This document shows positions 9,650 through 53,597 of a stretch of 64,000 nt of DNA, piece after piece. Made by a program: the position numbers and the translations under genes. Each line of letters starts with the position of its first letter. Position 1 is the stretch's first letter. The notes beneath the pieces are model-generated. The model made no database searches. It saw nothing but the letters and a program-made list of their open reading frames with translations, and was not told where the DNA came from. This DNA comes from Thermococcus pacificus. Lineage in GTDB: Archaea > Methanobacteriota_B > Thermococci > Thermococcales > Thermococcaceae. Location: contig NZ_CP015102.1 in assembly GCF_002214485.1 (NCBI RefSeq), positions 1,674,001 through 1,738,000 of the forward strand, written 5' to 3'.

Positions 9650-9714
9650 CTAGGTTATACGAGGTTCCGAAAGATTTATCCCTTACCACTTCGATTTACA
9701 TCGTGGTGAAACTC

Positions 9715-10557
9715 ATGCGCGCATTTATCTCCCTCGACCTTGAGGGGTTGCCGTACATAGTCAGCAGGGAGCACCTCTTCGTCAAGGGAGCCCTGTACGC
9801 TGAGGCGAGGAGGATAGCGACTGAGATCGTAAAAACCCTTGCCAGAGCGCTCCACGAGAACGGTTTTGACGAAGTTGTAGTGGCCGACAGCCACGGGCCG
9901 ATGGTGAACGTCCTGCCGGAGGAGATGCCGGAGTATGTCGAGCTCGTCAGAGGCTTTCCGAGGCCGCTGAGCATGGTGGCCTTCGCGAAGGGGAGCGACG
10001 CGGCCCTCTTCCTGGGCTACCACGCCAAGGCTGGCACTGGCTACGCCACCTTCGACCACACATACAGTGGGGCGAGCGTGGACAGGCTCGAGATAAACGG
10101 CGTGGAGGTGAGCGAGTTCCTTCTGAACTCTTACCTCCTCGGGAGCTGGGGAATCCCCGTCATCCTCGTGGGGGGAGACAGGAGGCTCATAGAGACAGAC
10201 GTGAGGAACCACGCCCCGTGGGTCGTTGGAATTCCCTTCAAGGAAGCGTCCTCGCGCTACGCCGCCAAGAGCCCCAGCATGGCGAGGGTAAAGGGCATGC
10301 TCGAGGCAGGCGTGAGGGAGGCGGTTGAAAGGCTGAAAACTGGGAAAGCAAAGCCATTGGTAACCGAAGAACCTGTACACGTTATCCTGCGCTTCTTGAA
10401 CAGCGCCTTTGCCGACGCGGCCGAGCTCCTGCCGGCAGTGAAGCGCGTCGATGGAAAGACCGTGGAGTTCGAGGCGGAAAAGGTTGAAGACGCATACAGG
10501 ATATTCGAGCTCCTTACCCTGGCTGCCGCCGGCGTTAACGCAGTGGTCACGAGGTAA
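9715..10557 (+). CDS. M55 family D-aminopeptidase (DppA-like)
   Basis: A 280-residue zinc peptidase of the DppA family, which in Bacillus removes N-terminal D-amino acids from small peptides. The metal ligands can be followed: Asp8 and Glu10 in ISLDLEGLPYI, His60 in ADSHGPMVN, His103 in GYHAKAG; FDHTYSG follows. Start at 9715 is preferred over GTG codons at 9703-9706 because GGTGA sits there as a ribosome-binding site. Monocistronic, with an AT-rich box near 9673. Substrate in an archaeon lacking murein is probably free peptides, by inference. Confidence 0.9.
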   Translation: MRAFISLDLEGLPYIVSREHLFVKGALYAEARRIATEIVKTLARALHENGFDEVVVADSHGPMVNVLPEEMPEYVELVRGFPRPLSMVAFAKGSDAALFLGYHAKAGTGYATFDHTYSGASVDRLEINGVEVSEFLLNSYLLGSWGIPVILVGGDRRLIETDVRNHAPWVVGIPFKEASSRYAAKSPSMARVKGMLEAGVREAVERLKTGKAKPLVTEEPVHVILRFLNSAFADAAELLPAVKRVDGKTVEFEAEKVEDAYRIFELLTLAAAGVNAVVTR

Positions 10558-10588
10558 AGCTTAAGTTACGGAGGTGCAAAAGGGTAAC

Positions 10589-10657
10589 GCCCCCGGGAAA
10601 CCGCGGGGGATGAGCGCCTCGGCGAGCCGTGAGTCCCCTTCGCTCCCCGGGGGCACA
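10589..10657 (+). ncRNA. predicted H/ACA box guide RNA (single hairpin)
   Basis: All parts of an archaeal H/ACA guide can be traced. A perfect 9-bp lower stem (GCCCCCGGG 10589-10597 with CCCGGGGGC 10646-10654) is followed at once by ACA (10655-10657). Inside is an asymmetric pocket, AAACCGC (about 10598-10604) and TTCGCTC (10639-10645), then an upper stem (GGGGA 10606-10610 with TCCCC 10634-10638). Next comes a K-turn: TGA 10611-10613 faces TGA 10630-10632, able to form tandem G-A pairs. A CGC/GCG mini-hairpin closes the apex. The 16-nt distance from upper stem to ACA fits the 14-16 nt rule. It lies between two convergent genes. The RNA would direct pseudouridylation of a target resembling GAGCGAA-UN-GCGGUUU, which I could not locate without rRNA sequence. 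Confidence 0.8.
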
Positions 10658-10694
10658 GCTCACCTGAGTGCCCAATTAAGTCAAGTAGTGGGGC

Positions 10695-11990
10695 TCAGTA
10701 GCGGTAGTCCGAATAGCCGTCGAAGTAGTTTTTCCTTCCGCCCTTCTTGCTCCTTCCATTGTTTCTCTTTCCGCTGCCACTGCCGTAATTCCTGGAGCGG
10801 CTGGAGTTTCTGGAGTAGTTCCTTGAACCGGGATGTCCCTGGCTCCTCTCGTACCTCTCGCGGTACTCGCGCGGTATCTCCTCGCTCAACTCCGACTTCC
10901 TAATCTCGACGCCCGCCTGCTGGGCGATGTAGCGGAGCCTTCTGAACTCGCCGGGCATGATGAATGTTACAGCCCTTCCCTTTTTGCCCATCCTACCTGT
11001 CCTGCCTATCCTGTGGACGTAGTCTTCAGCCGTCATGGGCAGGGAGTAGTTGACGATGTGGCTGATGTCCTGCACGTCAAGGCCCCTCGCGGCGACGTCG
11101 GTAGCGACCAAAACTTTTGTCTTCTTGTTCTTGAAGCGCCAGAAGGTCCTCTCCCTGGCGGCTTGGCTCATGTCGCCGTTTAAAGCCTCGGCCCTGTAGC
11201 CGTTGCTCCTAAGCCTCTCGCTCAGCTCATGCGTTTCCCTCTTTGTGGCGCAGAAGACTATGCCGTAAAAGTCCTCGTTGCCGTCGAGTATCTTCTTCAG
11301 CACAGTGAACTTTCTGGCCGGGACTACCTCAAGGTACTCCTGGTCGACCATCTCGGGCACAAGCTCGTCGCTGCTGACGCTTATGACCTCATAATCACCC
11401 ATGTAGCGCCTGGCAAGCCTCTTGATCTCGGGCGGCATAGTTGCCGAGAACATGAGAACCCTCTTCTGCTCCGGCGTCTCCCTGAATATCGCCTCGATGT
11501 CGTCTATGAAGCCCATGTCGAGCATCCTGTCGGCCTCGTCGAGGATGAAGAACTTAACGCCGCTCAGATCAAGGGTGCCGCGCCTTATGTGGTCGAGAAC
11601 CCTTCCGGGGGTTCCAACAACAACGTGGGTGCCCCTCTCAAGGGCCCTTATCTGCGGGCCTATCGGCTGGCCGCCGTAGACCGCGTAGACGTAAACCCTC
11701 TTCCTCCCGCGGAGGCTCTTGATCTCGTCCGCCACCTGGAGGGCTAATTCCCTCGTCGGGGTAAGGATTATCGCCTGGACTCCCCTCTCCCTCGGGTCAA
11801 TCGCCTCGATTATCGGAAGCGCAAAAGCTGCTGTCTTTCCAGTTCCGGTCTGGGACTGGCCGATTATATCTGTCTCCCCGCTCAAAAGACGCGGTATGAC
11901 CTCCCTCTGGATGTCGGTTGGCTGTGAGAAGCCTTTTTGCCTTACCGCCACTAACGTGGCCTCAGATAAACCCAATTTTTCAAAACTCAT
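10695..11990 (-). CDS. DEAD-box RNA helicase with basic low-complexity tail
   Basis: A 431-residue DEAD-box helicase. The Q motif (KGFSQPTDIQ), Walker A (SQTGTGKT), DEAD motif (LDEADRML), SAT motif (MFSATMPPEI), and HRIGRTGRMG motif VI are all intact. Residues from about 385 on are an Arg/Ser/Asn/Gly-rich tail (for example NYSRNSSRSRNYGSGSG) ending YFDGYSDYRY, expected to bind RNA non-specifically. Likely functions in RNA or ribosome remodelling. It stands alone, upstream of which tRNA-Lys lies on the same strand. Confidence 0.95.
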   Translation of the reverse strand: MSFEKLGLSEATLVAVRQKGFSQPTDIQREVIPRLLSGETDIIGQSQTGTGKTAAFALPIIEAIDPRERGVQAIILTPTRELALQVADEIKSLRGRKRVYVYAVYGGQPIGPQIRALERGTHVVVGTPGRVLDHIRRGTLDLSGVKFFILDEADRMLDMGFIDDIEAIFRETPEQKRVLMFSATMPPEIKRLARRYMGDYEVISVSSDELVPEMVDQEYLEVVPARKFTVLKKILDGNEDFYGIVFCATKRETHELSERLRSNGYRAEALNGDMSQAARERTFWRFKNKKTKVLVATDVAARGLDVQDISHIVNYSLPMTAEDYVHRIGRTGRMGKKGRAVTFIMPGEFRRLRYIAQQAGVEIRKSELSEEIPREYRERYERSQGHPGSRNYSRNSSRSRNYGSGSGKRNNGRSKKGGRKNYFDGYSDYRY

Positions 11991-12059: not shown

Positions 12060-12137
12060 TGGCGGGCCGGGGGGGATTCGAACCCCCGACCACGGGATTA
12101 AGAGTCCCGCGCTCTAACCATGCTGAGCTACCGGCCC
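12060..12137 (-). tRNA. tRNA-Lys (anticodon CTT)
   Basis: The minus strand gives GGGCCGG acceptor paired with CCGGCCC, discriminator G and an encoded CCA. The anticodon stem CGGGA/TCCCG encloses the loop CTCTTAA, hence anticodon CTT (lysine). The T-arm reads GGGGGTTCGAATCCCCC. No intron is present. It has its own TATA box (12167-12175). Confidence 0.97.
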
Positions 12138-53043: not shown

Positions 53044-53505
53044 ATGGCAATAATACCCAAGCCCGAGAAAGAGCTAACGCCGCTCGAGAGCATAGTCCTT
53101 AAGTGGATGAACCTTTCCTTTGACTTCGTTGTGATAGTCTTGGCCCTTCTCACGATGGCGTATGTGATCTACGCGATATACGACCTAATCGGCATCTTGT
53201 TTCATGGTTTTGACGTGGAGGAGGCGCTTCACGAGTTCTTGCTCGTCATCATACTTTTGGAGCTGTTTGAGCTGCTCACCCTCTACATAAAGGAGCACCA
53301 CGTGAGCATGCGCCGTGTGGCCGAGCTCGGCGTTGTTGCTCTGGTGAGGAAGCTCGTAATAACCGTTGACTATAAATCCCTCGGCTGGGAAGTCATGCTC
53401 GGAATGGCCGCCCTGATATTCGTTCTTGGCTGGATATACGTCCAGGAAAGGTGGAGGGTTTCAGAAGAGGAGAAGTTCATCGTTGAGCACGGGCTAGACC
53501 GATGA
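53044..53505 (+). CDS. PsiE-like membrane protein
   Basis: A 153-residue protein with four membrane segments: about 27-48 (FVVIVLALLTMAYVIYAIYD), 68-84 (FLLVIILLELFELLTLYI), and two more near 90-110 and 117-135 (VMLGMAALIFVLGWIYVQ). LYIKEHHVSMRRVAELGVVA is the conserved loop of the phosphate-starvation-inducible PsiE family. The function of the family is unknown in archaea. The stop codon lies inside box C of the predicted sRNA that follows. Confidence 0.8.
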   Translation: MAIIPKPEKELTPLESIVLKWMNLSFDFVVIVLALLTMAYVIYAIYDLIGILFHGFDVEEALHEFLLVIILLELFELLTLYIKEHHVSMRRVAELGVVALVRKLVITVDYKSLGWEVMLGMAALIFVLGWIYVQERWRVSEEEKFIVEHGLDR

Positions 53506-53551
53506 TGACCCTTCCCCTCCCCGAGCGGTGAGGAGCAATCCGGTAGGCTGA
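53502..53551 (+). ncRNA. predicted C/D box sRNA overlapping the psiE stop
   Basis: Elements in order: box C ATGATGA (53502-53508), 12-nt guide (53509-53520), box D' CCGA (53521-53524, variant of CTGA), 3-nt spacer, box C' GTGAGGA (53528-53534), 13-nt guide (53535-53547), box D CTGA (53548-53551). Spacings match archaeal C/D guides for 2'-O-methylation. The guide next to box D would pair with CCTACCGGATTGC and direct methylation at the fifth position (C). The short terminal stem is weak. Boxes C and the psiE stop overlap, as is common for Thermococcales sRNAs. Confidence 0.6.
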
Positions 53552-53597
53552 GGCAAAGGCTAAATACCTCCCTTCCCTATCTTTTTCGGTGGTGAGC

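Follow-up and report, generated by a model that had tools for sequence, protein, structure and literature searches.

The plus strand of positions 10589–10657 of the window (the whole 64,000-nucleotide stretch of DNA that was analysed) encodes an archaeal H/ACA guide RNA with a single hairpin, the Thermococcus ortholog of Pab160 from Pyrococcus abyssi and Pf9 from Pyrococcus furiosus. We observed a full-length match of this segment to the Rfam Pab160 model, RF02796 (model positions 1–68 of 68, 93 bits, E = 2e-15), with a score about twice the gathering threshold of 47.4 bits. The RNA is already known, being catalogued as Pab160 in heat-loving archaea, and it is an ordinary housekeeping gene; Pab160 and its ortholog Pf9 have been described and probed in vitro (PMC3726423, PMC4652768). 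A sequence-only reading of this DNA had proposed an H/ACA guide RNA on the plus strand at 10585–10660. The Rfam match, together with covariation and a matching 16S target, confirms the identity and the strand, and brings the boundaries slightly inward. Judged from its sequence, the RNA almost certainly guides pseudouridylation of one small-subunit rRNA uridine. We put the probability of the full explanation, that a Pab160/Pf9 ortholog with its own promoter forms an H/ACA RNP in which Cbf5 isomerises 16S U899, at about 96%.

RNAfold returned the claimed hairpin for 10589–10657 (+), with a free energy of −44.8 kcal/mol and z = −3.5; 1 of 200 shuffled sequences was equally stable. The minus strand of the same segment also folds (z = −2.3), and at such GC content folding by itself is weak evidence; what decides the matter is the Rfam match and the covariation rather than the fold. 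All the architectural elements described from the letters were found: a 9-bp lower stem, an asymmetric pocket, an upper stem, a K-turn, and an ACA straight after the stem. In RNA letters the segment reads GCCCCCGGG-AAACCG-CGGGGGAUGA-(GCGCCUCGGCGAGCCGU)-GAGUCCCCUU-CGCUC-CCCGGGGGC-ACA. The lower stem pairs RNA positions 1–9 with 58–66 and is followed directly by the ACA at 67–69, which lies 14 nt from the upper end of the 3' guide. The upper (GA) stem has 10 layers (16–25 with 43–52), the first being a C-U mismatch, with layers counted from sequence by the rule of PMC4652768. The K-turn consists of a 3-nt bulge, CGU, at positions 40–42 (ending in U42), and sheared G24-A44 and A25-G43 pairs, and is a predicted L7Ae site. 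The overall geometry is 10/5/9, subfamily 65, with a 6-nt 5' guide and a 5-nt 3' guide.

Table. Coordinates, in window numbering, of the guide RNA, its parts and its neighbours.
Feature	Position	Strand	Basis or remark
M55 D-aminopeptidase gene	9703–10557	+	upstream neighbour
Promoter-like BRE/TATA element TAAAGCTTAAGT	10555–10566	+	position kept in 37/42 relatives, with differing neighbours
Pab160-family H/ACA guide RNA (whole)	10589–10657	+	Rfam RF02796, 93 bits
Lower stem, 5' strand, pairs with 10646–10654	10589–10597	+	fold; pair counts
5' guide AAACCG, complementary to CGGUUU 3' of target U-N	10598–10603	+	invariant; 16S match
Upper (GA) stem, 5' strand, ends in K-turn sheared GA	10604–10613	+	covariation; GA invariant
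K-turn bulge CGU and opposing GA (putative L7Ae site)	10628–10632	+	UGA invariant; Rfam structure line
Upper (GA) stem, 3' strand	10631–10640	+	alignment; covariation
3' guide CGCUC, complementary to GAGCG 5' of target U	10641–10645	+	invariant; 16S match
Lower stem, 3' strand	10646–10654	+	fold; pair counts
ACA box	10655–10657	+	invariant
DEAD-box helicase gene	10695–11990	−	convergent neighbour

We next consider the alignment of the window sequence with 28 same-genus homologs (29 sequences, nearly gap-free, with no named reference sequence among them). Standard pairs occupy 96.9% of the cells in proposed pairs, and changes on both sides occur in 6 pairs, compared with 3.2 expected; none of 500 shuffles scored as high. 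This signal vanished once the pairing was slid by 1–3 columns. In the lower stem, 99.5% of cells are paired and 2 pairs show double changes; 4 pairs covary in the upper stem. The guides AAACCG and CGCUC, the GA elements with the UGA, and the ACA are invariant across all 29 sequences. Conservation of the paired positions in other Thermococcus genomes had been named beforehand as a test of the claim, and these positions are both conserved and covarying in the relatives.

Comparison of the pocket with the 16S rRNA of the same genome, a search that the sequence-only reading had suggested, revealed a matching site, GAGCG-U899-G-CGGUUU, with 11 Watson-Crick pairs (5 on the 3' guide and 6 on the 5' guide). 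The target had been predicted as GAGCGAA-U-N-GCGGUUU; this was nearly right as to the site, but the actual 16S pairing is GAGCG-U-G-CGGUUU. The prediction was off because the guides as first drawn included UU (RNA positions 51–52) and C16, which are upper-stem residues under the geometry of productive guides; productive known guides need a 10-layer GA stem, a 9-bp lower stem and 14 nt to the ACA (PMC4652768). The 16S target stretch is identical in three relatives. By way of the universal h31 site 966 (PMC2584109), U899 would correspond approximately to E. coli position 950, the 16S alignment to the E. coli record being blurred by that record's Ns and missing bases.

Even if genuinely of the H/ACA type, the RNA could be directed mainly at a tRNA, an mRNA or a different rRNA position, with U899 either a lesser target or none at all. 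Multiple targets are common among archaeal H/ACA RNAs (PMC4652768), and our scan covered 16S, 23S and window DNA. Nonetheless, U899 scored 29, the best value among all U of 16S and 23S, as against 21 for the next rRNA site and 26 for the best control, taken from every U of either strand of the window (128 kb), and we consider a different main target very unlikely. Candidate second rRNA targets, at 21 or less, score below the control-DNA maxima, and hence we claim none.

The RNA lies, as claimed, between two convergent genes, for an M55 D-aminopeptidase and a DEAD-box helicase. It had also been described as antisense to the 3' flank of the helicase gene. It does lie in that flank; however, it ends 37 bp before the helicase stop codon, and so could be antisense at most to the 3' UTR. 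The importance this implied for the helicase is not borne out, since the helicase is adjacent in only ~7 of 31 loci. The aminopeptidase gene adjoins the RNA in about half of the 31 relatives' loci, in either arrangement. We also noted a tRNA gene (12063–12137, minus strand, 72.7 bits) just upstream of the helicase gene and on the same strand; in relatives L039–L042, apparently the same tRNA precedes the helicase.

The promoter-like element TAAAGCTTAAGT spans roughly −34 to −23 relative to the first base of the RNA, its start overlapping the last M55 codon. In 37 of 42 relatives, the highest-scoring promoter-like match in a 150-base range is a BRE/TATA-like element (AAAGCTTAAG and variants) at −35 to −31; in the window, a match at −110 scores slightly better than TAAAGCTTAAGT. 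The flanking genes vary among relatives, yet the TATA-like box ~33 bases ahead of the RNA is conserved; we therefore think it most likely that the RNA is served by its own promoter and that its antisense position is incidental. It is scarcely credible that the segment instead acts in cis on its neighbours, either terminating transcription in both directions or controlling the helicase mRNA as an antisense, and resembles H/ACA RNAs only secondarily: a very stable hairpin between convergent genes, foldable on the minus strand too, would suit such a role, but the neighbours vary and the helicase is not a conserved one, whereas the guides, K-turn and ACA are invariant, and a terminator predicts no complementarity to 16S.

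Within the phylum, we detected the Pab160 RNA in 85 of 115 genomes searched, all 85 belonging to the window's own family; the Methanocaldococcus jannaschii control genome also matched RF02796. In a scan of named genomes, every match came from a MAG, and some of these matches were chance hits in bacteria. One genome, G094 (estimated contamination 6%), contains two Pab160 matches, of 88.9 and 68.5 bits, perhaps reflecting contamination rather than duplication.

Two genomes of the same genus, G018 and G021 (both estimated to be 99% complete), had no Pab160 match in Rfam searches allowing E up to 1, and their 16S target stretch is identical over 64 bases. For these two genomes and for G025 and G032, Rfam searches at E up to 1 returned no remnant or replacement guide; a guide-pattern search gave no credible hit, the sole match, in G025, being without a matching stem beside the ACA; and a DNA profile applied to the helicase and M55 loci found no remnant in the stretches read. 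The M55 protein had no match in G018 and is split into two pieces in G021, indicating rearrangement or loss of the region around the site. That two near-complete relatives have the target without the RNA indicates that the RNA is not indispensable. The odds are about even that at least two Thermococcus lineages (G018 and G021) have lost the guide while keeping the target, and that the modification there is either unnecessary or supplied by a different guide or enzyme. If so, these losses represent a natural knock-out that could reveal the purpose of this pseudouridine.

The genes for Cbf5, Nop10 and Gar1 are all present in the genome, and an L7Ae gene is expected in every archaeon. We propose that the RNA is transcribed from its TATA-like promoter, that Cbf5 would bind the lower stem and ACA and L7Ae the K-turn, and that Nop10 and Gar1 would be bound as well. 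In the predicted complex, 16S positions 894–906 sit in the pocket: GAGCG would pair with the 3' guide and CGGUUU with the 5' guide, U899 and G900 would stay unpaired, and Cbf5 would isomerise U899 to pseudouridine. Mutants of T. kodakarensis in cbf5, nop10 and gar1 survive, but their growth at high temperature is poor and a guide-dependent 23S pseudouridine is missing from them (PMC6138745); RNA sequencing of this species verified seven H/ACA-box RNAs (PMC4247193). Elsewhere in the window, positions 53498–53554 (+) likely encode a C/D-box sRNA (RF00095 snoPyro_CD, E = 6e-4, below the gathering score); several related sR families match there also.

Little hangs on the RNA at 10589–10657, since it is a catalogued housekeeping RNA. 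It does show that the sequence-only reading recognised an H/ACA guide RNA from the letters alone, and the small additions made here are its likely 16S target, a promoter-like element kept although the neighbours change, and two lineages in which the RNA has apparently been lost in nature. Relative to RF02796, the stems, pocket, K-turn and ACA are alike over the 68 model positions, with the RNA described here carrying one additional nucleotide in the terminal loop and departing from the consensus at a few places in the stems. P. abyssi Pab160 has been assigned to subfamily 55 (PMC4652768), whereas the 6-nt 5' guide places the present RNA in subfamily 65. The relation to Pf9, from which a composite guide contained in PDB 2RFK is derived (PMC4652768), rests on the papers and the Rfam model rather than on an alignment with the Pf9 sequence; Pf9 is assigned by PMC4652768 to the same 10/5/9 subfamily 65 as the RNA described here.
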